NCBI RefSeq assembly: GCF_030717945.1
Contig: NZ_JAVAIM010000001.1
Location: 2,479,131 to 2,543,130 of the forward strand
Reading direction: 5' to 3'
DNA length: 64,000 bases
Source of the DNA: Qipengyuania profundimaris
GTDB taxonomy: Bacteria > Pseudomonadota > Alphaproteobacteria > Sphingomonadales > Sphingomonadaceae
Both the position numbers and the translations under genes were made by a program. A model generated the notes under the pieces. It was not told where the DNA came from. It worked only from the letters and a program-made list of their open reading frames with translations, and made no database searches. Every line of letters begins with the position of its first letter. Within the stretch, counting starts at the first letter, position 1. Of this stretch, positions 38,115-55,429 are shown in pieces.

Positions 38115-38519
38115 ATGCTTCGCTTTGCCCTGTTTGCTACCGTTCTGGCTTTTCCCTGCGCCGCCCAAGCCAATCCAGGCGCGTCGGCAGGGATGCGCAT
38201 TTCCCTAAATATCCCAGAGATTTGCCAGCTAGAAGCTTCTATCGCTTCGGTCGATCCGGAAAGTGGGGTTACTACGGGTGATGTGTTCGAGATGTGCAAC
38301 GCCAGCCATGGTTTTCGCGTGATCGCGTCGCACCGTACATTGGCGGCAGGAGAAACTGCGCGCATCGTTTACGCCGGACAAGCCAGCCCGCTTGCGCCAA
38401 CCGGCCTTACCGAGATTTCTGTCCGCCAGAGTCCTGTAGCGAAAAAGGTGCCGTTCGTCGTTCAGGCGCGGGGCTTACGCGAGGAACTGGCGATCAGCCT
38501 TGGAATTACGGCCCTTTGA
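38115..38519 (+). CDS. Secreted fimbrial-associated beta-sandwich protein
   Basis: 134 residues with a signal peptide ('FALFATVLAFPCAAQA') and a mature domain of beta strands with two cysteines, 'EICQLEASI' and 'FEMCNASHGFRVIASH', spaced as in pilin-type folds. I recognise no exact family. It is convergent with the tip-subunit gene; the two stops abut exactly. Its place beside the fimbrial operon suggests an accessory pilin, but this is inference. Confidence 0.65.
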   Translation: MLRFALFATVLAFPCAAQANPGASAGMRISLNIPEICQLEASIASVDPESGVTTGDVFEMCNASHGFRVIASHRTLAAGETARIVYAGQASPLAPTGLTEISVRQSPVAKKVPFVVQARGLREELAISLGITAL

Positions 38520-39449
38520 TCAAAGGGCACTGACTGTCAGTGTTATCCGGTCGTTGTACCGTCCCGCCGGAACTGAAGCCGGCGGAACTTCCAAGCTCAT
38601 CGGGCGGGTATTCCCTGAACGGGGAGTAGGAGCAAGGTAAGTGAAGGCGCTGATACCAGTGAGATCGACTTGCGCCCCGTCGAAGTACAGACGATAGGGA
38701 ATTTCGCTACCGAGATCGACGTGCGCCAGGTTACCCGAATTGGCGGAAGCGACGTTCACCAGATAAGGCGCGGTGCTGAAAATGCGCGCGCCAAAAGGTT
38801 GTGACCGCGTCTGTTCGGACGTTGATAATGTGCCGAGATCAATCCGTGCTCCGGATCCGAAGCCACCACCGATCACTGCGCCTACGAATCTAACAGAGAC
38901 TGTGGCTGGAATTAGTATGGTGATCGTAAGGTTGGTCCGGTCGACAAGTGCCCCGTTCTGGTCGAACAAAAGCAGTTCCAGCCGATCGGTGTAGGTCCCT
39001 GCCGTCAGACCCCACTCGGTAGGTACTTGTAGCTCGAACGGGACCGAACGCCCTTGTTGTCCTACCGACGCATTTGCGATCTTCACGTCGCTGAGCGAAG
39101 TGCCACTGGACGAAGGGTCCTGGAGAATCTCGATTTGCGGCTGTCCGGGCGCCCTGAGATTGTATTCGGGAAAGTTCGGATCGACCGGGCCCGTCAGACG
39201 CGAGACCCTGATCGTCGCCGGGCAAGCATTTCCGGCAGGCCCGCGGCCGGCGTCGCTGCCCTCTCCGACCGATTTTCTTATACGCACCTGGAAATTGTCG
39301 ACGCTCATCGCGCCGGGGGCAATCTCGACGCCGCTAACTACTACCGATTGGTCGGAACTCGCGAACTCGGGCACGCATTCGGCTGCCATCAGCGAAGTGG
39401 GCATCGCGGCGAGCGCGATCAGGGTCAGGACTAAGTTCAGCTGTCTCAT
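38520..39449 (-). CDS. Fimbrial tip adhesin-like protein of archaic chaperone-usher system
   Basis: 309 residues. Signal peptide ('TLIALAAMPTSLMAAE'), a variable N-terminal half with cysteines ('ECVPEF', 'GNACPAT'), and a C-terminal beta-rich domain ending 'PAGRYNDRITLTVSAL', the donor-strand/spore-coat-U style of archaic pilins. It is last in the operon, 8 bp after the usher, where Csu-type systems place the tip adhesin. Confidence 0.75.
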   Translation of the reverse strand: MRQLNLVLTLIALAAMPTSLMAAECVPEFASSDQSVVVSGVEIAPGAMSVDNFQVRIRKSVGEGSDAGRGPAGNACPATIRVSRLTGPVDPNFPEYNLRAPGQPQIEILQDPSSSGTSLSDVKIANASVGQQGRSVPFELQVPTEWGLTAGTYTDRLELLLFDQNGALVDRTNLTITILIPATVSVRFVGAVIGGGFGSGARIDLGTLSTSEQTRSQPFGARIFSTAPYLVNVASANSGNLAHVDLGSEIPYRLYFDGAQVDLTGISAFTYLAPTPRSGNTRPMSLEVPPASVPAGRYNDRITLTVSAL

Positions 39450-39457
39450 ATCGTCTC

Positions 39458-41941
39458 CTAGTCGCTTTTCGCCGGTACTCGAACCGTCCCCAATCGAAGA
39501 AGGCCCGTGACTTCCATCGGCACTTCTATCGTAAACTCCTGCCCGGTATCGTTGAGGCGTACGACATAGGTGCGCCCCGGAGCCAGCCCGATTACTCCGA
39601 AACGGCCGACGGAGTTCGTGAAGAACGGCTGGGCTTCGAAGCCCTCGTCGTCGACCGAAGTGATCCGTCCGACCATGAGCGCGGCCGGTTCTTCGCCCGA
39701 TTGCAGGAAGCCAACTGCACTTACGAACCGGTCGTTGCCAACGACGAATTCGTAGCCGCTTCGGTATGGCGGGTCGACACGGGCCACACCCGTCCCGATG
39801 TCGTAGCCAGCTTCGAGCGAGTCGATATCGTATCGCACGTCCTGCGTATTGTAGGATGAGAGGCGGCTGACCACAGCCGCACCCAATGGTCCGCTGGCGG
39901 CTTCGTATCGGCCGCCGGTAAGGCTGCGTCCGGTAATAACGTCGGTGCCCCGGAGCGTTTGATGGGGACGGGCGAGAAGAAATGAGTCCTGGATCGGACG
40001 ACCGATACCAAATACGCCATCTGCTATCGCGAAGGATGTGCCGAGTTGCAGTCTTGCGGTCCGGTTATCGGTTACTCCACCTAGATTCGGCCCCGAAGTT
40101 GCAAGCGATGCGCGCGCCTCGAACCGATTGGATATGTAATCTACTACCCCGTCCAGTGATGTGCTGCCGTCGGACGATTGCGCATTGATCGAATAGCCTA
40201 GCGACCCGACATCGTTGGTCAGGCTGCGTGACAGCGTAGCGCGCGCCAACTTGCGTCTGCTTTGGTAACTGGCATCGGCCCGGTGCCGCCCCCCGAAGAA
40301 GTAGGAAACAGACGCGCGTACACCAAAGTTGCGACCGAACGTCGAACCCGTCCCGTACTCTACCCCGGCGGTAAACCGCAGGTTGTGTCTGGTAGAATGT
40401 GAGATGTCCGCGAAAACGGTGCTTTGGTCCCTCGCTCCCGATCGCGACAGGTAATTAGCACCGCCTAGGATCGAAGTGCGCGGGGAAAGCGATTTGCTGA
40501 AGATTGCATTAAGCGAAAGGCTCTCGAGGCGAAAATCGGTCAGATCGCTCACGGTCCGGAAATTGTCACTGTTGTAATCGAAACTGGCCGAAAAACGGAT
40601 CGCTTCTGGGCCAAAACCTGCGATGAGGCGGTACCCACCCCGCACGGCGAAGCCAGTGCCACCGCCCGAGCTCACCGCCGCCTGCAGATCGAAGCTGCCA
40701 GGGATCACCTGAGGCACGAAGCGTGTTTCTGCCGAAACAACCTGCACGTCCTGCGAAGCCTGGAAGCCGCCCCCGAGGATCAGCGTATCGCTCAACGCTT
40801 TGCGATAATGCGCAATTGCTACGGGATCGTCCGAATACCGCGGCTGCAGGTCCAGTTCCGTCGCGAGCACCCCGGCCGCGAAGGTGTATTCGTCCTCGCC
40901 CGCTTCGAGTTCGATCGGCTCGAAGAAATAATCGAAGCGCGTCACCTGTTCACGCCCCGTTGCATCCCGCACGACCAGTTCGACGTCATTGGACCCTGCC
41001 TGTATTGGCAGATCTTCGAGGCTGTAAGTGCCGGGCTGGAGATCCAGCGTCTGATATGAGGCGCCGTTGACGATGACCTCCACGGTGGAAGGAGAGGTCA
41101 GGAGGATCTGCCGCCCACCCAGATTGACGACCGGCGCGAACGGATCAAAAACGCGGCGGCTTTTTTCGAGAGCGACTCCGCCGATGAAAGGAGTCTGCAA
41201 CCTGCCGGTGTTGGTCAGCCGAAGATCGCCCGCGCTCCATCGTCGATAGGATTCAGGCTGGTCGTAGACCGCTCTTACTGCCCGTCTGTAGGGACGATAC
41301 CGGCCGTTCAGTCCCTCGGCGAGTCCGCCGTCATATTCGAGAACGACGTTGCGATAGCGGGCTGCACCGGAAAGAAAGATTTCGGGTGGCCCGAGGCCGC
41401 CGGTGTCCCGGTAGATCAGGTTTGCACTGGTATTAAGATAGGCGCTGAAATTCGCCGGCTCGATCGTCGGCAACTCGGGCTCGGCGGACTCCTGTCTTCC
41501 TCTCAGCGGTTCGATAGGACGGTAGGTCGCCTCGATCGCCTGTACCACAAGCGCCAGGCGCGACATGTCGAAATTGATGTCGAATCCTGCAGTCGCCAGT
41601 TCCGACGAGGTAACGAAAGGATCCCCCGCTATTGCTTCGCGGAGGCGGAGGACGCCCGCATCATTCAGTAGTCTTGAGAGTTGGGTGGTCAGCGACTGGC
41701 TTTCGATGGCAGCCGTTCCATCGGGCTCCACCTGAACGAGCACGTCGCCCAGTACGCGACCATTCCATACCAGCGGTACCGACATGTCGATCGAACGCGA
41801 TTGCTGTCCGGCAGTCGGTTCCTTCGCCTGCCGCGCAACAACTTCGTTGGCGCGCGCACCATAGGGCAGGCCCAGACAGGCGGTTATCAGTGCCAATCGG
41901 CTGACCCCCGCGATCAGCCCGGCGGATTTACCCCCGGTCAT
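39458..41941 (-). CDS. Outer-membrane fimbrial usher (FimD/PapC family, archaic type)
   Basis: 827 residues with a signal peptide. N-terminal domain ('VPLVWNGRVLGDVLVQVEPD'), barrel with plug ('LQPGTYSLEDLPIQAGSNDV', a conserved usher motif) and a C-terminal domain ('GFEAQPFFTNSVGRFGVIGL', 'GRTYVVRL'). It exports and assembles subunits delivered by the chaperone. The chaperone gene ends 3 bp before it. Confidence 0.93.
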   Translation of the reverse strand: MTGGKSAGLIAGVSRLALITACLGLPYGARANEVVARQAKEPTAGQQSRSIDMSVPLVWNGRVLGDVLVQVEPDGTAAIESQSLTTQLSRLLNDAGVLRLREAIAGDPFVTSSELATAGFDINFDMSRLALVVQAIEATYRPIEPLRGRQESAEPELPTIEPANFSAYLNTSANLIYRDTGGLGPPEIFLSGAARYRNVVLEYDGGLAEGLNGRYRPYRRAVRAVYDQPESYRRWSAGDLRLTNTGRLQTPFIGGVALEKSRRVFDPFAPVVNLGGRQILLTSPSTVEVIVNGASYQTLDLQPGTYSLEDLPIQAGSNDVELVVRDATGREQVTRFDYFFEPIELEAGEDEYTFAAGVLATELDLQPRYSDDPVAIAHYRKALSDTLILGGGFQASQDVQVVSAETRFVPQVIPGSFDLQAAVSSGGGTGFAVRGGYRLIAGFGPEAIRFSASFDYNSDNFRTVSDLTDFRLESLSLNAIFSKSLSPRTSILGGANYLSRSGARDQSTVFADISHSTRHNLRFTAGVEYGTGSTFGRNFGVRASVSYFFGGRHRADASYQSRRKLARATLSRSLTNDVGSLGYSINAQSSDGSTSLDGVVDYISNRFEARASLATSGPNLGGVTDNRTARLQLGTSFAIADGVFGIGRPIQDSFLLARPHQTLRGTDVITGRSLTGGRYEAASGPLGAAVVSRLSSYNTQDVRYDIDSLEAGYDIGTGVARVDPPYRSGYEFVVGNDRFVSAVGFLQSGEEPAALMVGRITSVDDEGFEAQPFFTNSVGRFGVIGLAPGRTYVVRLNDTGQEFTIEVPMEVTGLLRLGTVRVPAKSD

Positions 41942-41944
41942 GAA

Positions 41945-42679
41945 TCAGCCCCCCAGGGTAACTGTCAGGCCTTCCTCGGCCATTGGCCTTTCCGTCGGGA
42001 TGAAGAACGATCGGAACCGCTCGGGAGCGACTACTCCGACGCCGATCAGCTTCGCCATCTGCTCCGGCGTCAGCTGCATGCTGACCGCGGTTCCATCTTC
42101 GGCCCGTCCAAGGACCTGCCACGGCAAGGTTCCTGCGGTGAAGTATCGGGTGCCGCGATTGGCCAGCCGCACCTGGATGCCTGGCTGTTCACCGTTCATC
42201 ACGGGAGCCACCTCGTCGACCACCGGGTCCGGAGCACTACCGTCAGGTATGACATTCACCAGGACATTGAAGTTGACGACAACCTGGACTTGCGACTGAC
42301 CCGGCGAAACTTCCACCGGAACCTGCCTGACCTGCATGTAGTAGACTTCGGATTTGGCCAGCTCAGGATCGCCGACGTACTGCACACGGAATGCTTGTTG
42401 CGAATTGGCGGGCACTACGATTTGGGCCGGAAAAACGAGGAAATCGTCGTCCGCAGGAAATAGTTCCAACTGTCCGTCTTCGCTGATTACGCCGCGGAAC
42501 ATCTGCACTTCCACCGGGAACTCTCCGGCCCCGGGGTTGGTGAGTTCGACCCGTGCGATGGACTCCCGGCCGAACGGTTCGACGTCGACGACCATCGGCG
42601 AAAGACGGGCTGCCTGTACAGGCAGCGGTGCGCTTGCGAGCAAAGCCGCGCTCAGTACGGCGAGAAGATATCTGATCAC
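41945..42679 (-). CDS. Periplasmic fimbrial chaperone (PapD-like)
   Basis: 244 residues from the GTG at 42679 (GGGGG five bases upstream), which gives a clean signal peptide ('IRYLLAVLSAALLASAPLPV', cleaved after 'QA'). The frame is open back to an ATG at 42727, but that ATG lies inside a stable inverted repeat. 'EPFGRESIARVELTNPGAGE' and 'FLVFPAQIVVPANSQQAFRV' are chaperone G1/F1 strand signatures. It binds unfolded pilins by donor-strand complementation. Confidence 0.9.
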   Translation of the reverse strand: MIRYLLAVLSAALLASAPLPVQAARLSPMVVDVEPFGRESIARVELTNPGAGEFPVEVQMFRGVISEDGQLELFPADDDFLVFPAQIVVPANSQQAFRVQYVGDPELAKSEVYYMQVRQVPVEVSPGQSQVQVVVNFNVLVNVIPDGSAPDPVVDEVAPVMNGEQPGIQVRLANRGTRYFTAGTLPWQVLGRAEDGTAVSMQLTPEQMAKLIGVGVVAPERFRSFFIPTERPMAEEGLTVTLGG

Positions 42680-42719
42680 TGCAACCCCCACTCGATCCTT
42701 CGCCACTCCGGCGAACGGT

Positions 42720-42751
42720 CCGCACATTGATCCCTATCCCTCAATGTGCGG
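42720..42751. repeat. Perfect 11-bp inverted repeat upstream of the chaperone gene
   Basis: CCGCACATTGA and TCAATGTGCGG flank a 10-base loop. In RNA it forms a strong hairpin just ahead of the chaperone start, downstream of the terminator-like stem. It could adjust mRNA stability or serve as a protein site. Confidence 0.85.
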
Positions 42752-42814: not shown

Positions 42815-43384
42815 TCAGATCGCGCCGAGGGTGATCACGGCGGTGTCAACATAAGCGCCGGCAACCGGACGCTTCTGAGTATCGTCACGGTCGATGTAGA
42901 CCCGCAGGTTGGCATCGTCGTGGAACGCGCCGCCAGGAGTGACGGTCGGCGAGCTGCCGGTGCCCTTGGTGCGGTAATCCAGCTTGCTGAAGCTGCCATC
43001 GTTCGAGGTCAGCTCGATGCGGTAATGGATCAGGTTGGTGAAGTCCGCGGCATCGTTCGCGGCGAGGCTTGCGCCGGCAGCATTCAGCAGACCGTTGTTG
43101 GCGGTGGATTTCGCAGCGATCTGCGCGGCGTAGTTGCAGCTCACGTAGATGTTCTGCGTGCCCGAGTCGGCATTTTGCGAACCGTTCTTCAGCAGCAACG
43201 CATTGGCACCAGCGCCTTGGTTGATGTTAACAGAAGCAAATTCGAAAGCGGCAGGCGCTTCGATGCTGCATTCGTCAGCTACGGTGGCACTAACGTCGAG
43301 AGTGGCGGAGTCGGTAGCGTCGGCAAAGGCAGGCGACGAGACCATAGCGGTAGTCGCTACAGCGACCAGAGCAAGCTTCTTCAT
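42815..43384 (-). CDS. Spore-coat-U-type major fimbrial subunit
   Basis: 189 residues from 'MKKLALVAVATTAMVSSPAF' (signal peptide, cleaved at 'AFA-DA'). The mature protein starts with strands 'SATLDVSATVADECSIEAPA' and ends 'GAYVDTAVITLGAI', typical of SCPU-domain pilins in Csu-like archaic fimbriae. Cysteines in 'DECSIE' and 'YVSCNYA' should form the disulfide. It is the first gene of the operon. 'GAAAGGA' precedes the start by about 6 bp. Confidence 0.88.
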   Translation of the reverse strand: MKKLALVAVATTAMVSSPAFADATDSATLDVSATVADECSIEAPAAFEFASVNINQGAGANALLLKNGSQNADSGTQNIYVSCNYAAQIAAKSTANNGLLNAAGASLAANDAADFTNLIHYRIELTSNDGSFSKLDYRTKGTGSSPTVTPGGAFHDDANLRVYIDRDDTQKRPVAGAYVDTAVITLGAI

Positions 43385-43802
43385 AAGGTATTTCCTTTCA
43401 GACATCGTAGCGAGAACAGTGCTTAACACTGCCGTTAAGTGCGAACCCATATGCAACTCCCTATGAAAGGAACTGCCAGAACTCCGTCTTTTCTATCTGC
43501 GGAGCGCAACATGCGCGCAGTCTTTTGACTCAGCGAAGATTTCTGCAGATGACTGTCTGCCCACCCCCTCGAATCGCCGTCCTGCGATGCAAATCACTTA
43601 ACAAGGTGTTAATCCAAATGTAAATGCTCAAGGCGTTGTGTTTACGGGGAATGTTTCGCGATGGCACAGTCGACCTCCGCCCGCATAAGGAATAGGCTTA
43701 ACAGATGGTCAGGCCACTTAACAAAAGTATGTTTTACCGCGGTGAATTGAGGCTATGCGCAGGATATGCTAGGCTTGCAGTCTTCTATACGGGATAGCCA
43801 TC
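43385..43802. promoter_or_regulatory. Divergent control region with repeated CTTAACA elements
   Basis: This 418-bp AT-rich region separates the fimbrial operon from the PilZ-HTH gene. CTTAACA occurs at 43422, 43597, 43697 and 43717, and its reverse form GTTAAG at 43434. At 43598-43612, TTAACA and TGTTAA form a dyad with a 3-bp spacer. The copies at 43697 and 43717 are exactly 20 bp apart. This looks like operator architecture. No gene or RNA is visible here. Confidence 0.55.
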
Positions 43803-44471
43803 ATGACAGTCGGCAGAGGAGCGCAGTCGCGCAGTTCGGCGCGTTACACCTTACAACTGCCGATATCGATTATCTCCGGAGAAGGAGCGGAACTTCCCGG
43901 CAGCATTCTCAACCTGTCACGCGAGGGTTGTCTGCTCTCCACGCTCGAATACCTGTTGCCCGGTCAGTCGATAAACATGAAGATTACATTGCGCGACGAG
44001 TATCCGATCGAGGCTACTGTAGCGTGGTCTAGCGACACGCTGTATGGCTGTACCTTCGCCACTCCACTCTCGGAGGACCACCTTTCGGACATCCTGCGTG
44101 TCAATTCCGTTAGTCCGACCGAGGTCACTTCGTCCGAAAGTGTTCTGGCCAAGCTTCCCGAAGCGTTGCTGGCTGCGCGGCAGGCCTCGGGCTACACCAC
44201 GACCGAACTGGCTCGACATCTCGGGGTCAGCAGGCCGACCCTGTGGGCTTGGGAGAGCGGCCGTGCGACCCCTTCTCACGACAATCAGCAATCGGTGCTC
44301 GACTTTCTAAAACGGTCACAATTTGCCGGGGTAGAAATGCGGGAAAGCATCGTGGCGCCGGACAACGGTACGAATGTCTTTTTTCAGGAAACGATCGCCG
44401 CTTCCCGACGCGATCTTGCTCACAAGCTCGGCCTTGACGAAGATCAGATTCGCATTTCGATCAAGTTTTGA
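43803..44471 (+). CDS. PilZ domain-HTH fusion regulator
   Basis: 222 residues. N-terminal PilZ domain with the c-di-GMP motifs RxxxR ('RSSAR', residues 10-14) and a DxSxxG variant ('NLSREG', near 38-43). A Xre-type helix-turn-helix follows at about 118-165 ('GYTTTELARHLGVSRPTLWA', 'WESGRATPS'). The last 55 residues are of unknown type. The combination predicts a c-di-GMP-responsive transcription factor. It is divergent from the fimbrial operon, the likely target. Confidence 0.85.
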   Translation: MTVGRGAQSRSSARYTLQLPISIISGEGAELPGSILNLSREGCLLSTLEYLLPGQSINMKITLRDEYPIEATVAWSSDTLYGCTFATPLSEDHLSDILRVNSVSPTEVTSSESVLAKLPEALLAARQASGYTTTELARHLGVSRPTLWAWESGRATPSHDNQQSVLDFLKRSQFAGVEMRESIVAPDNGTNVFFQETIAASRRDLAHKLGLDEDQIRISIKF

Positions 44472-44815: not shown

Positions 44816-44892
44816 TGGCGCGCCCGGCAGGACTCGAACCTGCTGCCTCAAGATTAGAAGTCTCGCGCTCTATCCAGATGAGCTACGGGCGC
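44816..44892 (-). tRNA. tRNA-Arg (anticodon TCT)
   Basis: On the minus strand, acceptor GCGCCCG/CGGGCGC, discriminator G, encoded CCA, T-arm 'GGTTCGAGTCC' and anticodon loop CTTCTAA give anticodon TCT, arginine. 77 nt including CCA. Confidence 0.95.
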
Positions 44893-48882: not shown

Positions 48883-49908
48883 CTAAACCAGCGTATAGCT
48901 TTCCGCGATCTGCGTGATGCCGCGCTTGCCCGTTTCGTCGCGCCCCAACTGCACGATCACGTCGATAACGCTGGCTGCATAGGCAATCGTATCGCTGCGA
49001 GTCAGGCCGATTCCCGTCTGCATGACCATGAGCGACAATTGCTCCAGCGCACCGCGCAAGCTGTTGGCGTGAACAGTCGAGAAACTGCCCGGATGGCCGG
49101 TGTTGATGGCCCGCAGGAAGCTGACGCTTTCCGCTCCGCGTAGCTCGCCCAGCACGATACGGTCCGGACGCAAGCGAAGCGCAGCTTGCAGCAGTTCATT
49201 GGCGGTGACCTTGGCCTCGCCCAGTTCGCCTTTCACCGCAACAAGACCAACGCCGTTTTCGCCCGGCAGTTTCAACTCCGGCGTGTCCTCCACCAGCACC
49301 ACGCGCTCCTGCTTCGGGATTTCCCCAAGCATGGCATTGAGGAAGGTGGTCTTGCCCGTGCTGGTGCCTCCGGAGACAAGGATCGTGCGGCGCTGGGCGA
49401 TGGCTTCGCGCAGGAACGCGACCGGCTCATCCTGCGGATCGGGCATGGCGCCGCGGGTCGGCGGCGAAAGCGGGCCGGTGTCGTAGGCGTCCAGCGGCAG
49501 ATCGAGCCGGCGGTGGCGACGGATCGCAAGCGCCCAGTGTTTCCGGGCGGCAGGCGGACCGCAGAACTGAATGCGCGCGCCGTCCGGCAGGGTCGCGCCG
49601 AGCAGTGGGTGTTCGCGATTGATCCCCTGATGGCTGACTCGCGCGACCTGTTCGGCGAGACGCTGGATAAGTCGATCGTCGATCTCGGGCCGATCGATCT
49701 TCTGCATCCCGCCGAGCGCTGCATCTTCGACCCAGACTTCGCCAGGACGATTGACGAGGATTTCGGTGACCGTGTCCCGTTCCAACCACTCGCGAAACGG
49801 TGCGAGATAGGCGTCGAGATAGACGCTGCGCTCGCCGTGCAGGTCGACCGGCGGCGCCTCTTCCTCGGGCGCTCCGTCGGCGACGAAAGGATGGATGTCG
49901 GCGCTCAC
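48883..49908 (-). CDS. virB11: VirB11-type T4SS hexameric ATPase
   Basis: 341 residues from a GTG start. N-terminal domain ('FREWLERDTVTEILVNRPGE'), Walker A 'VSGGTSTGKTTFLNAML', Asp box 'VVLVEDTPELKL', Walker B 'RIVLGELRGAE' and His box 'GHPGSFSTVHANS'. It powers pilus assembly and transport at the inner membrane. It is last in the virB operon. Confidence 0.95.
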   Translation of the reverse strand: MSADIHPFVADGAPEEEAPPVDLHGERSVYLDAYLAPFREWLERDTVTEILVNRPGEVWVEDAALGGMQKIDRPEIDDRLIQRLAEQVARVSHQGINREHPLLGATLPDGARIQFCGPPAARKHWALAIRRHRRLDLPLDAYDTGPLSPPTRGAMPDPQDEPVAFLREAIAQRRTILVSGGTSTGKTTFLNAMLGEIPKQERVVLVEDTPELKLPGENGVGLVAVKGELGEAKVTANELLQAALRLRPDRIVLGELRGAESVSFLRAINTGHPGSFSTVHANSLRGALEQLSLMVMQTGIGLTRSDTIAYAASVIDVIVQLGRDETGKRGITQIAESYTLV

Positions 49909-49921
49909 GCTGCTGCCGTCT

Positions 49922-51052
49922 TCAATTCACCGAGGAGAAGTCGAGATCGCGGCTGGTGAAGATGCGGATTGGGGCACCGATACCGACACGCACGGTCGGG
50001 CCGCGCTGGCCGTCCTGCTGGGCGGCGGTGGCTGCGGCGGACTGGCTCGCTCCGCCGATCAGCACGCCGCCCGCCCCGCCGGTCGCCACCGTGCCGAGGC
50101 CGCCGACGACGCTCAGCAGCATGGCCGAACCGAAGCGCTTGAAGAAGCCGTTGCCGGAAACCTTGCCCTGCAGGCCGGTCGTGCCGTCGAAACCGATCGC
50201 CGGAGAGGCCAGATTGACCGAGGCACCATCGGGCCGGATCAGGCGCGTCCAGATGACATAGGCACGCTTCTGGCCGTTCTGAAGGCCCGACTGGTACTGG
50301 CCGATCAGGCGTGATGAACGCGGGACGAGCACTCGGGTCCCGTCGAAGCTGCGCACATCCTGGCTGACGACGGCGCGCACGAAGCCGGGCACATTGGTGT
50401 CGATCGCGGTTTCGAGCACGGCGGGGATCAGCGTGCCCTGCGTTACCGTGGTCGAAGGATTGGTCATCGCGCTGGCCCGGGCCGGTGCGCCGCCAACGCC
50501 GCCGATGCGGCTGGCGAAGTCGGAGGCCGAATTGCCGGTCGCAGCCTCCCCAGCCCCGCCTTCTGCCGGAGCAGTCGGGTCGAGCACTGCGACACCAGCG
50601 GGTGCGGCCCCCGCGTCGAAGACAACCGTCGGGCTGGCGAAGCGGTTGGTCGCGGTCGCCGGATCGGGCGCAACGGAATAGACCGGCTGCGGGGCCGGTG
50701 CGGATTGCACCTGCGCGACGGGCGCGGCCACCGGCGTAACCGGAGTCACGGCTTCGGGCGGCACCGCGGGCACGACTTCGACCGGAGCCTGCTGGCCGCC
50801 GACGCCTTCGGGTTCCGCGACACGGGTGGCATTCATGCTCCATAGCGTCACGATGCCGAGGCCCGCCACGATCGCGATACCTGCGACCATGCCGAGCATG
50901 TCGGACTTGCCAGCAGGCCGGGCAACCGCCGGGTGGGCATTGCGCTGGGCAAGGTCGATGATCTCCGCGTCGATCTCGTCACGCGGATCGGTGTCGTTGG
51001 CGATCGTTTCGCTGCCGATCGTCTTTTCGGGCAGGCGCATGGCGAGACGCAT
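49922..51052 (-). CDS. virB10: VirB10-type T4SS core channel protein
   Basis: 376 residues. Cytoplasmic N-terminus, one membrane helix at about 51-70 ('MLGMVAGIAIVAGLGIVTLW'), a Pro/Ala-rich periplasmic stalk and a C-terminal beta-barrel domain ('GTLIPAVLETAIDTNVPGFV', 'VLVPRSSRLIGQYQSG', 'GGAGGVLIGGASQSAAA'). It spans both membranes. TAATG junction with virB9. Confidence 0.95.
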   Translation of the reverse strand: MRLAMRLPEKTIGSETIANDTDPRDEIDAEIIDLAQRNAHPAVARPAGKSDMLGMVAGIAIVAGLGIVTLWSMNATRVAEPEGVGGQQAPVEVVPAVPPEAVTPVTPVAAPVAQVQSAPAPQPVYSVAPDPATATNRFASPTVVFDAGAAPAGVAVLDPTAPAEGGAGEAATGNSASDFASRIGGVGGAPARASAMTNPSTTVTQGTLIPAVLETAIDTNVPGFVRAVVSQDVRSFDGTRVLVPRSSRLIGQYQSGLQNGQKRAYVIWTRLIRPDGASVNLASPAIGFDGTTGLQGKVSGNGFFKRFGSAMLLSVVGGLGTVATGGAGGVLIGGASQSAAATAAQQDGQRGPTVRVGIGAPIRIFTSRDLDFSSVN

Positions 51053-51825
51053 TAGCTATCTCCCTTCTGGGCAAGCGCGGCACTGCCGCGTGCGGAAACC
51101 GGTTGGGCCGGGCGTTCGGGCCCGGTGTTGACGAGCTCGGCGCGCTCTTCGCCCGAGCGCAGGATCAGCGTGCGCGGCACACCATCGACGACGATCGTAT
51201 CGCCGCGCACGGTAAAATTGACCGGTCCTTCGACGCCCTTGGCATTTTCGACAAGGATCGCCGGAACCTGCTTGCCCTGCGGCCAGGTGAGGAAGGTCGC
51301 GCTGCCATCGTCGAACGTATTCTCGGGCAACAGCTCTGGATCGCCCGACGCGCTCCAGGCAAAGTTGAGGTCTGCCGGATCGACAACGGCGAAAGGATCG
51401 CTGGCCGCTTGCTTTTCCGCGGCATTCGCCTGTGCCAGCTGCGGCTCCTCTTCCGGCTCCTCCGGATAGTCGAAGCGAAGCACGTAAAGCGGCTTCGCAT
51501 TGGGGCTGGCGACAAGATCGAACAGATAGGTGCGCTTGCTGGTGATGACCGTGAGATTGGTGGAGGCACGCGGCGCGAGCGGTTTGACGAACAGGATGTC
51601 GGCCCGCTTGTTGGGCGTGACCTGCCAGGCCTGCGAATCCCCGATGGCGACATTCTCGATAGTCTCGTCGTCGCCGAACACGATGGAGGCCTGCACGGTG
51701 ACCTTGCCGTCCACGCGAACGACTTTCGCCTCGTCATAGAAGATCTCGACCAGACGCGAATCCTTCGCGACGGCAGGCGCGGCCAGCATGGCCAGGGCAA
51801 GCGCGGGAATGAGCGCGCGGTTCAT
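51052..51825 (-). CDS. virB9: VirB9-type T4SS outer-membrane core protein
   Basis: 257 residues. Signal peptide ('ALIPALALAMLAAPAVAKD'), then 'NKRADILFVKPLAPRASTNL' and 'TSKRTYLFDLVA' typical of VirB9 domain 1, a linker, and a C-terminal domain with 'TFDDGSATFLTWPQGKQVPA'. It builds the outer ring with VirB10 and usually VirB7, which is not seen here. Confidence 0.94.
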   Translation of the reverse strand: MNRALIPALALAMLAAPAVAKDSRLVEIFYDEAKVVRVDGKVTVQASIVFGDDETIENVAIGDSQAWQVTPNKRADILFVKPLAPRASTNLTVITSKRTYLFDLVASPNAKPLYVLRFDYPEEPEEEPQLAQANAAEKQAASDPFAVVDPADLNFAWSASGDPELLPENTFDDGSATFLTWPQGKQVPAILVENAKGVEGPVNFTVRGDTIVVDGVPRTLILRSGEERAELVNTGPERPAQPVSARGSAALAQKGDS

Positions 51826-52994
51826 CAGCGTTTCTCCACGGAACGGTCGAGGGCCTTGGGCGGGGCGGGCTTGAAACGGCTGCCGATCCCCATCGCCCGG
51901 CTGGGCCCGGAATTGAGTGGTGCGACCTGACCATTGCCTGAAGCGGTCGCGAACACCTTGGTGGTGCGGGTGACCGATGTGCCGCCCGCGTCATTGGCCG
52001 CAGCCGCCGTCGGTACGGCCGAAACATCGATGCGGCGCGCTTGCGAGCTGGCGGAATTCGCCGCCTGGGCCTGTACGAGGGCGGGTGCCGGGGCGGCCTG
52101 CGGTGCGGCGGCGGGAGCAGAAGAGCCCTTGTCCTGGCTGTCGGGCGTCATGCCGAACACGGTCCAGCCGGCAACCATCGAACCGGCGACTTTCAGCACC
52201 AGCACCATAAGCGCGACATGCACCGCACCGATCATGAAGAATGCCATAGCCGCCTGCGGATCGATGCTGCCGGGCGTCGCCACCAGCGCGCCGAGTACGG
52301 GCACGGCGAGTTCGAGCATGATGCTGCCGCCAAGGACGGCGAACAGCGGAGTAAGCGCGCACAGCGTCAGGCCCTTGATCCAGCCAGTGAACAGCCCGCG
52401 TGTGCCATTGAACAGCGCCATCACTACGAAGATCGGACCGAGCGCGACCAGCACGCTAAGCGCGATCTTGGTCGTCACCAGCAGGCCGACGGTGCCGAGC
52501 ATGAAGAGCATCGCGCCTAGCCACATCATGCCCTCGGGCGAAAAGGCCGAGAAATCCTCGCCCCCGCCGGCGCTGGCCTCCTGGATGGCCATGAACACGA
52601 CATCGATCTTCTGGGCGAAGACCTGCGTCGCACTGCCCTGTGCGCCGGTGAGAATGCCCGCGAGATAGTCGGGCGTTCCGATCGCGAGGTTCCAGACGAC
52701 GCTCTGGTAAGCGACCCAGCTGGTTGCGAAGGTCAGCACCAGGCCGAGCGTCATCATCCGCGGCACCAGGCTGCGCACGCCGATATTGGTGCGCCCGGTC
52801 AGCAGCGCAAAACCGAAGATCGCGATGAACAGGGTGAGGACGATCGTCAGCGTCGTCGTCAGCGCCCCGCCCGATGCGAACAGCCGACCGAAGGCTGCTG
52901 CCGCAGTTTCACCCGCGACGCAGTCCACGCCCTTCAGCGCGGCGGCGACACCGTTGCCGACCTGTTCGGCAGCCTGCTGGCAGTTCGCGCTCAT
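51825..52994 (-). CDS. virB6: VirB6/TrbL-type T4SS inner-membrane protein
   Basis: 389 residues with about six membrane helices between 40 and 300 ('LTIVLTLFIAIFGFALLTGR', 'LSVLVALGPIFVVMALFNGT', 'GWIKGLTLCALTPLFAV'). The C-terminal 100 residues are polar and Ala-rich. Forms part of the translocation pore. The ATG overlaps the virB4 stop; the frame upstream of it is not family-like. Confidence 0.9.
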   Translation of the reverse strand: MSANCQQAAEQVGNGVAAALKGVDCVAGETAAAAFGRLFASGGALTTTLTIVLTLFIAIFGFALLTGRTNIGVRSLVPRMMTLGLVLTFATSWVAYQSVVWNLAIGTPDYLAGILTGAQGSATQVFAQKIDVVFMAIQEASAGGGEDFSAFSPEGMMWLGAMLFMLGTVGLLVTTKIALSVLVALGPIFVVMALFNGTRGLFTGWIKGLTLCALTPLFAVLGGSIMLELAVPVLGALVATPGSIDPQAAMAFFMIGAVHVALMVLVLKVAGSMVAGWTVFGMTPDSQDKGSSAPAAAPQAAPAPALVQAQAANSASSQARRIDVSAVPTAAAANDAGGTSVTRTTKVFATASGNGQVAPLNSGPSRAMGIGSRFKPAPPKALDRSVEKR

Positions 52995-55429
52995 TCCGCA
53001 GCCATATCGAGATTGAGATCGCCGTGCTCGGCGATGTCGTTCGCGCCGCCGGGCCATTTCGTACCGGTAAGCGCGGGGAACCAGTCGGCCGGAGCATCGC
53101 CCATCGCTTCGCGCAGCACGTCCAGACGACGGACCGAGCTTTCGCGGCCCGAGAGCAGCGTCAGAACTTCGGGCGCGCCCGACAGGTCGAGCCGGACCAC
53201 GACGCTTGCGTCGGGCTGGCGCACGAGGAAACAGCGGCTGTGCGCGGGCAGCGTGCGGATCAGTACGAGCTCGTGCTCGGTCAGGCCAAAACCATCGCAG
53301 TAATCCTCGGGCCGCGCGCGGCTGTTGGGCATGAACACCATGGTCGCGGTCTGCTCGACCAATGCGGTCGAAATGCGGCTTTCCAGCGCATCGCGCGCGC
53401 TCTGCGTCGCGAAACCGACCAACGCGTTGCGCTTACGCAACGTTTTGAGCCAGTCGCGGATACGCGCGGCGAAGACCTCGTCGTCGAGAGCCTTCCAGCC
53501 CTCATCGATAAGGATCATGGTCGGCTTGCCGTCCAGCCGCTCCTCGATCCGGTGGAAGAGATACATCATGGTCGGCGTGCGCAGCTTCGGATTCTCGAGC
53601 AGCGCGGTCATGTCGAAGCCGAGCACGCGACTGGTCAGGTCGAGCTTGTCTTCCGCATTATCGAACATCCAGGCGTTCTCGCCCGATCCGATCCATGCGC
53701 CCAGCCGATCCGCCAGATCGCCCGGTTGCGGACGGCGGCTGCCGGAGAGCAATTCCTTGAAGTGGCGCAGACGGCGCAGCGAGGCGTCGTTGGCATAGGC
53801 GGCGTCCACCGCACCGGCGATGGTCTGCTCTTCTTCCGGCCCTTCGGCCTTGAGCAGCACGCCCAGCCAGTCGCGCAGGAATGCCTTGTTTCCCGGCGTA
53901 TCGGGCAGCGCGAGCGGGTTGAAGCCGGTCGGTTCGCCAGCGCGGATGCTGTCGTAGCGACCACCGATGCCGCGCACGAACAGCTCCGCCCCGCGATCCT
54001 TGTCGAACAGGATGGTGCGGGGGCTGAACTTCTGTGCTTGCGCGGCAAGGAAATTCATCACCACGGTCTTGCCCGACCCGCTCGGCCCGATGACCGAAAA
54101 ATTGCCGAGATCGCCATGGTGGAAGTTGAAGAAGAACGGCGTCGCGCTGGTAGTTTCCAGCAGCGTCACCGCTTCGCCCCAGTGATTGCCTTCCGCTTGG
54201 CCCAGCGCGAAACCGTGCAGCGAACCGAAGCTGGCCATATTGGCGCTGGAGATTAGCGCTCGGCGGACGAGGTAGCTCTCGTTGCCGGGGAACTGGCCCC
54301 AAAAAGCGGGTTCGAGATTGGTATCTTCGCGCACGGCGATGGCGCCGGTATCGGCAAGCGCGGCGGCGCAGGCGGCCATGGCATCGTCCAAGCGGCCGAG
54401 ATTGCGTTCCTTGACCATGACCGTCAGATGGTGGTCGCCGAAGCCGACCGCACCATTGCCCAGCGCATCGCGCGCGGCGAGCATGTCGGCGCGCTCGGCG
54501 GCGGCTTCCTCGTCGGCACTTTTCAACCGGCGGATCGCCAGATCCATCCGCTCGCGCGCAGTCTGGCGCTCGGTCGGCGCATAGCTTTCGCTCACGACCA
54601 TCTCGAACGGCAGGCGCAGCAGGCTGTCGAGCAGGCCGGGGCTGGTCGCCTCCGGATAATCCTTCAAGCCGAGCATCGCGGCGAAATCGGGTGATCCCGA
54701 CCCGCGCATCTCCATCGCATCGAGACCGAAGCTGACCCGGCGGTAGGGCAGCATATTGCCGATATCGACATCGTCGGCAGGCTTCCTGACCGGACGCATC
54801 TCGCCATTGTAGAGCGCGGACAGCAGCTCGAGTATTTCGGAATTCGTATTGCCGAGCGGGCCGACGTAATCGGTCAGCGGCGCCGCGCCATAGGCCTGCA
54901 ATGCCGCGACCAGACCCTGCGAGGCGGCGCGCAAGGACCGAAGATCCTTGGGATCGGCTTCCAGCTGCTCGCGTCCGGTGCGCTTGAATTTCTTGCCGAC
55001 CCGCTCGACCAGTCCGGCCTTACCGCGCGCCGGGCGGCGGATCAGCGTGATGAACTGGTCGTTCACGAACAGCTGGCCCGAGCCGAGCCGCTCGCGCCAG
55101 CGTTCGTCGATATGGCGGCTGATCGGATCGGGGAACTGGGCCTCCAGATCGACCGATACGCGGCGCCGGATGACGTGATGATAGAGCACGAATCGCGCAT
55201 CCAGCGTGGAGCGCAGCACCACTTCGCGCGTGGCGGCGTGTGCGTTGAGCGCTTCGCTATCCTCGGTCTCGAACAGCAGACCGGGCACCTGGATCGCAGT
55301 CATCAGCGATCCGTCGCGCAGCAGCAGCGTGCTTTCGTCGATCAGGCGCAGATAGGGCAGCCGATCCCCGGCGCGCGCTTCTTTCGCGCCCCAGGCAGCA
55401 GCGCCCTTCCATTTGTCCTTACGCGGCAT
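52991..55429 (-). CDS. virB4: VirB4-type T4SS ATPase
   Basis: 812 residues, near the usual length. N-terminal CagE/TrbE-VirB4 domain; Walker A 'VIGPSGSGKTVVMNFL' near residue 440; Walker B 'KPTMILIDEGWKAL' near 630 and 'KRNALVGFATQSARDAL'. It energises substrate transfer. It overlaps virB3 by 11 bp. Confidence 0.96.
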   Translation of the reverse strand: MPRKDKWKGAAAWGAKEARAGDRLPYLRLIDESTLLLRDGSLMTAIQVPGLLFETEDSEALNAHAATREVVLRSTLDARFVLYHHVIRRRVSVDLEAQFPDPISRHIDERWRERLGSGQLFVNDQFITLIRRPARGKAGLVERVGKKFKRTGREQLEADPKDLRSLRAASQGLVAALQAYGAAPLTDYVGPLGNTNSEILELLSALYNGEMRPVRKPADDVDIGNMLPYRRVSFGLDAMEMRGSGSPDFAAMLGLKDYPEATSPGLLDSLLRLPFEMVVSESYAPTERQTARERMDLAIRRLKSADEEAAAERADMLAARDALGNGAVGFGDHHLTVMVKERNLGRLDDAMAACAAALADTGAIAVREDTNLEPAFWGQFPGNESYLVRRALISSANMASFGSLHGFALGQAEGNHWGEAVTLLETTSATPFFFNFHHGDLGNFSVIGPSGSGKTVVMNFLAAQAQKFSPRTILFDKDRGAELFVRGIGGRYDSIRAGEPTGFNPLALPDTPGNKAFLRDWLGVLLKAEGPEEEQTIAGAVDAAYANDASLRRLRHFKELLSGSRRPQPGDLADRLGAWIGSGENAWMFDNAEDKLDLTSRVLGFDMTALLENPKLRTPTMMYLFHRIEERLDGKPTMILIDEGWKALDDEVFAARIRDWLKTLRKRNALVGFATQSARDALESRISTALVEQTATMVFMPNSRARPEDYCDGFGLTEHELVLIRTLPAHSRCFLVRQPDASVVVRLDLSGAPEVLTLLSGRESSVRRLDVLREAMGDAPADWFPALTGTKWPGGANDIAEHGDLNLDMAAE

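Follow-up and report, generated by a model that had tools for sequence, protein, structure and literature searches.

A PilZ-XRE protein family of Sphingomonadaceae as a candidate direct link between c-di-GMP and surface-fibre operons

Background

The subject of this study is a gene of the marine sphingomonad Qipengyuania profundimaris that lies on the + strand, at positions 43803..44471 (stop included), of a stretch of 64,000 nucleotides from contig NZ_JAVAIM010000001.1, hereafter the window. The open reading frame (ORF) starts with ATG, and its product, 222 amino acids long, joins a PilZ domain carrying the motifs for cyclic dimeric guanosine monophosphate (c-di-GMP) to a helix-turn-helix (HTH) of the XRE/Cro-C1 type and a conserved tail. 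The gene diverges from an operon that encodes a pilin, a chaperone, an usher and a tip protein. Judging from sequence and predicted folds, we consider it fairly probable that the PilZ-HTH protein is a one-component c-di-GMP transcription factor that sets the expression of the fimbrial operon from which its gene diverges, CtrA being a probable co-regulator.

The proposal builds on features that are observed: the architecture, the conservation of the ligand signature, the predicted folds, the recurrent linkage to fibre operons and to genes of c-di-GMP type, and conserved boxes in the promoter regions. In the mechanism that we propose, the PilZ domain would bind c-di-GMP, and binding would alter how the HTH (with the tail) is posed, or its oligomeric state. 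The altered HTH would then change its grip on the intergenic DNA at 43385-43802 and adjust the transcription of the fimbrial operon, probably also that of its own gene, the expected sign being that high c-di-GMP yields more fimbriae. The boxes of CtrA type found in the same region would probably add a cell-cycle input.

Domains and predicted fold of the protein

The initial annotation of this gene, made from the letters alone, called a fusion of PilZ with an Xre-like domain, and all three profiles concerned, PilZ, HTH_31 and HTH_3, score above their Pfam cut-offs. PilZ is matched over residues 8-99 (5.1e-12, 46.5 bits for a cut-off of 22.5); together with the structural match this places the domain at residues about 10-102 (43830..44108, +). 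The HTH, at residues about 118-172 (44154..44318, +) by Pfam and structural match, is recognised by HTH_31 over residues 124-168 (3.1e-8, 34.2 bits for a cut-off of 27) and by HTH_3 over residues 124-160 (2.5e-7, 31 bits for a cut-off of 23). The two c-di-GMP motifs are present as annotated, with the signature intact: RxxxR reads RSSAR, R10-R14 (43830..43844, +), and [D/N]xSxxG reads NLSREG, residues 37-42 (43911..43928, +). Alignment and model also delimit a conserved C-terminal helix and end segment (SRxxIAxxAG...IxI) at residues 189-222 (44367..44468, +), which possibly has a role in dimerisation. No NCBIfam family scored above cut-off for this protein, and a sequence search of solved structures found no full-length relative, its 17 weak matches all lying in the HTH region.

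The structure predicted from 53 aligned sequences has a mean predicted local distance difference test (pLDDT) of 79.7 and a predicted template modelling score (pTM) of 0.45. It contains a six-stranded PilZ barrel, with pLDDT block means of 78-95 over residues 11-100, followed by a helix at 91-101, an HTH bundle at ~111-151, a long helix at 159-178 and a C-terminal helix at 189-209. The predicted PilZ part best matches the PilZ domain of BcsA (9b8v_E: Z 12.6, 2.4 A over 93 residues); the values are Z 12.1 and 2.6 A over 81 residues for PA0012 with c-di-GMP (8u0i), and Z 8.7 and 3.5 A over 94 residues for MrkH (5ejl). Residues 116-171 superpose on the operator-bound P22 c2 repressor (3jxb_D) with Z 8.5 and 1.6 A over 56 residues; a Z near 8 by itself possibly reflects a common arrangement, and the Pfam HTH profiles back the HTH call.

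A family with a conserved ligand signature

The PilZ, XRE-HTH and tail arrangement is widespread in Sphingomonadaceae and is not a one-off. Named genomes, when scanned, yielded 64 loci, mostly from Qipengyuania, Erythrobacter, Sphingopyxis, Sphingobium and Novosphingobium, of which 13 have the HTH and the tail but not PilZ; an order-wide profile of 18 rows matched in 128 of 396 genomes, all matching rows coming from Sphingomonadaceae and some of the matches spanning PilZ alone or HTH alone. At 1e-8, the window protein has no match in 24 genomes of the order's other families, and among 289 genomes across the class full-length matches occur in its own family only (G000, G119; labels of the form G000 and L000 are our handles for genomes and loci).

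In an alignment of 142 distinct full-length members, S39 and G42 are invariant (142/142 each), R14 is kept in 138/142, and the R10 column holds an R in 108/142. Position 37 is N in 129 members, D in 12 and R in one. The Asp-to-Asn change that, it was suggested, may tune affinity is not a special feature of this protein, because N is the norm of the family; the published form of the second motif is itself D/NxSxxG, in the available text of PMC3161979. Four HTH residues, R126, W150, E151 and P157, are each found in 142/142 members, and in the tail A206 is kept in 139/142 and G210 in 126/142.

The whole block is conserved in three orthologous loci, those of the uncultured Erythrobacter isolates 898 and 998 and of Qipengyuania sp. 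XHP0211, where the PilZ-HTH proteins are 84, 87 and 94% identical to ours. Identity to these three is 93-98% in the HTH and 80-89% in the PilZ part. The ratio of non-synonymous to synonymous substitution rates (dN/dS) over the whole gene is 0.33-0.35, and the gene looks to be under purifying selection.

The divergent intergenic region and CtrA

The 418 bp between the pilin gene and the PilZ-HTH gene (43385..43802) contain five CTTAAC boxes. The window has nine such boxes in all, five of them between 43422 and 43722; they were seen by eye before they were counted, which makes the clustering post hoc, and the window-wide count is ordinary, being reached by 25 of 100 shuffles. Near the pilin start lies an inverted pair, CTTAAC-N6-GTTAAG (43422..43439); further on comes the near-palindrome CTTAACAAGGTGTTAA (43597..43612), which can also be read as TTAA-N7-TTAA (43598-43612), and on the PilZ-HTH side are two direct boxes, 20 bp apart (43697..43722, +). 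The pattern CTTAACANNNTGTTAA has a single exact match in the genome, at 43597-43612. The orthologous intergenic regions hold 6, 3 and 4 CTTAAC boxes, mostly at matching places. The inverted pairs have two different spacings and are also compatible with CtrA. A scan of 43350-43850 for sigma-70 promoters found 0.

In a family-wide set of 116 de-duplicated regions upstream of PilZ-HTH genes, 48 of which belong to the class with GGDEF-type neighbours described below, the proximal 140 bp contain 231 occurrences of TAAC/GTTA, for a mean of 24 and a maximum of 42 in random stretches of the same loci. Direct TAAC pairs 11 bp apart number 37 in these proximal regions (control mean 0.285, maximum 2), and the more distal 140-bp stretch has 53 TAAC/GTTA and one direct 11-bp pair. 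YTAA-N7-TTAA or TTAA-N7-TTAA is the CtrA consensus in the available text of PMC11264516, which also gives CTAA-N7-TTAA at fliQ and four sites at Caulobacter pilA. The genome studied here encodes CtrA (426 bits for a cut-off of 350), and we think that the family-wide promoter boxes are more likely CtrA sites. In related genomes the motif also precedes genes for a CcrM-like methylase, a CheA-type kinase, a chemotaxis receptor, a single-domain PilZ protein and a receiver-domain protein, all hand-picked for Pfam among 34 motif places, two other picks having no Pfam match. Since the 11-bp motif stands before genes without HTH, such as the single-domain PilZ gene (L324) and the CheA-type gene (L303), the boxes are not clearly a PilZ-HTH operator.

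A different reading also has to be weighed: the boxes would be CtrA sites through which CtrA drives the fimbrial operon as well as the PilZ-HTH gene, and the targets of the PilZ-HTH protein would lie elsewhere, for instance in its own gene only or in other genes. We hold this to be possible, though on the unlikely side. The agreement of the 11-bp pairs with the CtrA consensus and the nature of the other genes that the motif precedes both point to CtrA, as does the presence of YTAA-N7-TTAR upstream of the pilin in three of nine loci without PilZ-HTH; but of these nine upstream regions only one contains CTTAAC, and G070 and G008, whose pilin promoters are the nearest homologous ones lacking a PilZ-HTH neighbour, have none in 450 bp. 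At this locus two pairs are inverted (CTTAAC...GTTAAG), not direct, and the strict motif YTAA-N7-TTAAC is not over-represented in the genome, with 12 matches versus 19 for the reversed control; sites of the form TTAA-N7-TTAA arise by chance too. Because of the two inverted pairs and the absence of CTTAAC from the G070 and G008 promoters, the case for CtrA appears less clear-cut at the window locus than in the family.

The possibility that CTTAAC is a general companion of PilZ-HTH-linked fimbriae was also considered, and rejected: it is seen only in the window clade. Among PilZ-HTH-linked pilins outside that clade, the one at L136 has no CTTAAC, and at L075 there is one at the first pilin and none at the second.

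Recurrent linkage to fibre operons

We return to the proposal that the PilZ-HTH protein acts on the operon beside it. The initial annotation suggested looking for the same two-domain layout beside other Csu-like operons, and the search was run for chaperone-usher operons: the arrangement recurs, with an usher within 9 kb of 28 of the 142 distinct members, on several branches of the tree. The scan recorded profile matches within 9 kb of 167 full-length genes, corresponding to these 142 sequences and drawn from overlapping collections. The labels obtained were GGDEF-type (54), usher with GGDEF-type (20), usher (8), usher with gro (1), Tad with gro (18), gro (11), Tad (2), curli (3) and curli with GGDEF-type (1). 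One of the eight members labelled usher, L190, was dropped as a fimbrial neighbour for a weak (9.7e-7) and partial usher match, and is excluded from the 28. On the tree, the usher-neighbour trait requires 9 parsimony changes, for a mean of 25.9 and a minimum of 22 in 300 shuffles: the usher link is thus inherited within clades, yet across several clades.

Outside the window clade, the linkage is found in the Sphingopyxis-type loci, in G202, G185 and G226, and in the group G123/G163/G265/G334. In eight Sphingopyxis-type loci the fimbrial operon is bracketed by two PilZ-HTH genes: one copy diverges from the pilin end, like the window gene, and the other diverges from a gene with a kept GGDEF motif (at L089, PAS-GGDEF-EAL by Pfam). 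In G073, a PilZ-HTH member lies upstream of another such fimbrial operon, on the same strand. Other fibres are also concerned: the curli genes (CsgF, CsgG, curlin repeats) come after the member of Sphingobium bisphenolivorans, and other members flank Tad-pilus genes. The CsgG profile matched 22 times, in 21 of 80 genomes; 17 matches exceed 190 bits, and four of these 17, in four genomes, have a PilZ-HTH gene at a distance of about 10.2 kb or less.

The reverse test starts from the ushers, in a sample of 140 genomes made of the profile-match genomes plus G073 and G079. With the usher profile A2, a first batch of 80 genomes yielded 34 matches (in 27 genomes) and the remaining 60 yielded 14 (in 12). 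Thirteen of these 48 matches have a PilZ-HTH gene closer than 10 kb, the distances being 1.6-3.5 kb, for a chance expectation of ~0.3-0.7 (one or two PilZ-HTH genes per ~3.3 Mb genome). All 13 come from the first batch (13/34), which is biased, genomes with known linkage having been deliberately included; our confidence in the proposal was kept nonetheless, because 13/48 is still far above chance. From a reading of the tree and the places, the 13 linked ushers form about seven relatedness groups. G072 (two rows, one open frame) falls just beyond the limit, with a gap of 10.3 kb, and G307 and G174, for which the place of the weak profile match is not listed, were scored as not adjacent. A search at the level of the genus found the linkage in 5 of 13 usher places (G000, G036, G079 and G080, close relatives, plus G073).

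Several points have to be set against the proposal. The majority of members have no fimbrial genes beside them: the largest class, 51 tips in one clade, has a GGDEF-type neighbour, and 24/142 tips have none of the neighbours that were sought. In the window itself, no GGDEF or EAL gene was found within 9 kb. Seen from the ushers, 35 of the 48 matches have no known PilZ-HTH gene as close as 10 kb, a figure that includes all 14 matches from the remaining 60 genomes, and 8 of the 13 usher places of the genus have no PilZ-HTH gene in the surrounding 20 kb, among them the closest non-orthologous usher, G070, at 50% identity. Adjacent members share ancestry, so that the counts are not independent. 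The intergenic boxes fit CtrA as well, and, since the pTM is low, the model does not fix the relative pose of PilZ and HTH, which is not reliably predicted.

The main target of a c-di-GMP-responsive regulator could also be distant or global, the fimbrial linkage being incidental and limited to one small clade; we think this unlikely. XRE proteins commonly act in trans, and the single paralogue in the same genome (C1:21459-21917, 34% identity over residues 7-162) adjoins groEL and a MatE gene, with no fibre genes. The confinement of the genus linkage to five usher places fits as well, but the recurrence of the linkage in Sphingopyxis-type loci and in the other lineages named above does not. As for the view in the initial annotation that the neighbouring operon is the target, it gains from this recurrence in other lineages, and the CtrA-like TTAA boxes leave room for another reader of the region.

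Partner genes of GGDEF type

A GGDEF-type neighbour within 300 bp, and no usher, is found for 55 genes; in 52 cases it lies downstream on the same strand, and in one more it overlaps on the same strand. The partner ORFs are mostly 300-390 amino acids long (for example L204:7523-8521 and about 50 relatives). Pfam, run on seven such partners plus that of L089, finds PAS and GGDEF domains in six checked examples and in L245, which is outside the clade. Among 64 distinct partner ORFs lying no more than 3 kb away, a few of them fragments, only 9 keep the motif GG[DE][EQ]F: eight Sphingopyxis-type partners and L231. That the partner is an active enzyme everywhere was rejected on this count. Because the motif is lost, the degenerate PAS-GGDEF partner is probably, on sequence grounds, a sensor or a receptor and not an active cyclase.

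That the PilZ domain has ceased to sense c-di-GMP and serves protein contacts only, in an otherwise ordinary XRE regulator, seems to us very unlikely: certain PilZ domains no longer bind, as the available text of PMC7288161 has it, and within the clade the PilZ part changes faster than the HTH, but the window protein and almost every other member retain the motif residues, and many members neighbour GGDEF-type genes.

The fimbrial locus and related genes

The content of the operon, which lies on the - strand, fits the archaic (Csu-like) chaperone-usher type. The SCPU-domain pilin starts with MKK... at 43384 (42815..43384; Pfam SCPU 1.8e-7); it is followed by a periplasmic chaperone of PapD type (41945..42727; PapD_N 3.5e-5, above cut-off), an outer-membrane usher (39458..41941; Usher 2.9e-9, above cut-off like the SCPU match of the pilin) and a tip or adhesin-like protein (38520..39449), whose C-terminal SCPU-like part scores 20.8 bits, below the cut-off of 22.4. 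A divergent archaic operon and the limits of the intergenic region had been annotated in the same way. At the orthologous locus G036, the four fimbrial proteins are 94-97% identical and the PilZ-HTH protein 87%.

A secreted-looking protein of 134 amino acids (38115..38519, +), with no Pfam match, converges on the operon, as it does in orthologous loci. It is retained in L031 and L054-L056, and it recurs at the end of related fimbrial operons, convergent or on the operon strand. A tRNA-Arg (tct) gene lies at 44816-44892 (-) of the window, 345 bp downstream of the PilZ-HTH gene; the genes beyond it vary among the orthologous loci, so the fimbrial block may occupy a variable site. Further on, at 48883-53057 (-), comes an ATPase resembling VirB11, which shares about 35% identity with the CpaF-type ATPases of related genomes; the genes after it look by eye like VirB10, VirB9 and VirB6, so that a type IV secretion cluster may lie close to the fimbrial genes.

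Two sets of related genes were seen in other surroundings. Thirteen loci (L102, L104-L111, L113-L116; for example L102:9914-10369), mostly of Sphingopyxis, have the HTH and the tail without PilZ; ten of the 13 come after ABC-transporter, HlyD and Omp85 genes, and these ten also adjoin a 2OG-Fe(II) oxygenase/AhpC-type gene. A PilZ-HTH subfamily (L098, L101, L103, L052, L053) sits in housekeeping surroundings between a ybaB-type gene and lon, with none of the sought fibre genes nearby, and its second motif has D in L052 and L053.

Discussion

The known c-di-GMP transcription factors are a mixed set with unrelated sensors, and MrkH, the well-studied PilZ example, is without a canonical HTH. The P22 c2 repressor and the N-terminal domain of SinR share the HTH fold and HTH_31/HTH_3 with the window protein; to our knowledge, chains of these types carry no PilZ sensor. 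BldD of Streptomyces has an XRE-like HTH, and we know of no PilZ domain in it. It is, like the protein proposed here, a transcription factor controlled by c-di-GMP, a tetramer of which dimerises it (PMC4151990, available text). FimY, of the type 1 fimbriae of Salmonella, is described in excerpts of PMC6741139 as having an N-terminal arginine motif reminiscent of PilZ, a C-terminal HTH, and an EAL gene, stm0551, immediately upstream; its authors judged it non-homologous to PilZ proteins, unlike the window protein, whose PilZ domain is clear by profile and predicted fold.

The closest comparison is MrkH. This protein of Klebsiella pneumoniae is an established case of a PilZ transcription factor for fimbriae: it depends on c-di-GMP and activates type 3 fimbriae (PMC3161979, available text). 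Like the window protein, it has a PilZ domain with RxxxR and D/NxSxxG, and its gene lies close to a chaperone-usher operon; the genes around it include one for an EAL enzyme (PMC3161979). In MrkH, PilZ is C-terminal and joined to a DNA-binding domain that is not an HTH, as far as the text of PMC3161979 and PMC12564702 goes; in the window protein, PilZ comes first and an XRE HTH serves as the DNA-binding part. By analogy, the window protein would function like MrkH, yet, because of this order of domains and the XRE HTH, it is not a member of the MrkH family. Closer to the organism studied here, Erythrobacter flavus has a documented case of c-di-GMP signalling that runs through a PilZ protein (PMC12172448, available text). 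No characterised PilZ-XRE-HTH regulator was found in the open-licence literature searched, many subscription papers being outside that scope.

Since relatives of the window protein adjoin adhesive-fibre genes in several distinct lineages, it is probably a direct switch for adhesive surface fibres. For the family, we put at about even the chances of a wider statement: that these PilZ-XRE proteins, found in Sphingomonadaceae only in the samples searched, are repeatedly deployed beside fibre operons (chaperone-usher, curli, Tad) and PAS-GGDEF(-EAL) genes, under the control of CtrA, as a lineage-specific counterpart of MrkH made from different DNA-binding parts. If this is true, such a conserved PilZ-HTH family would link the signal to DNA in the simplest direct way, and c-di-GMP would reach fimbrial transcription by a second, independent route. 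The conserved CtrA-like boxes, if they are what they seem, would tie this route to the alphaproteobacterial cell cycle, and the family would offer a trackable handle on the control of attachment and biofilm in sphingomonads.
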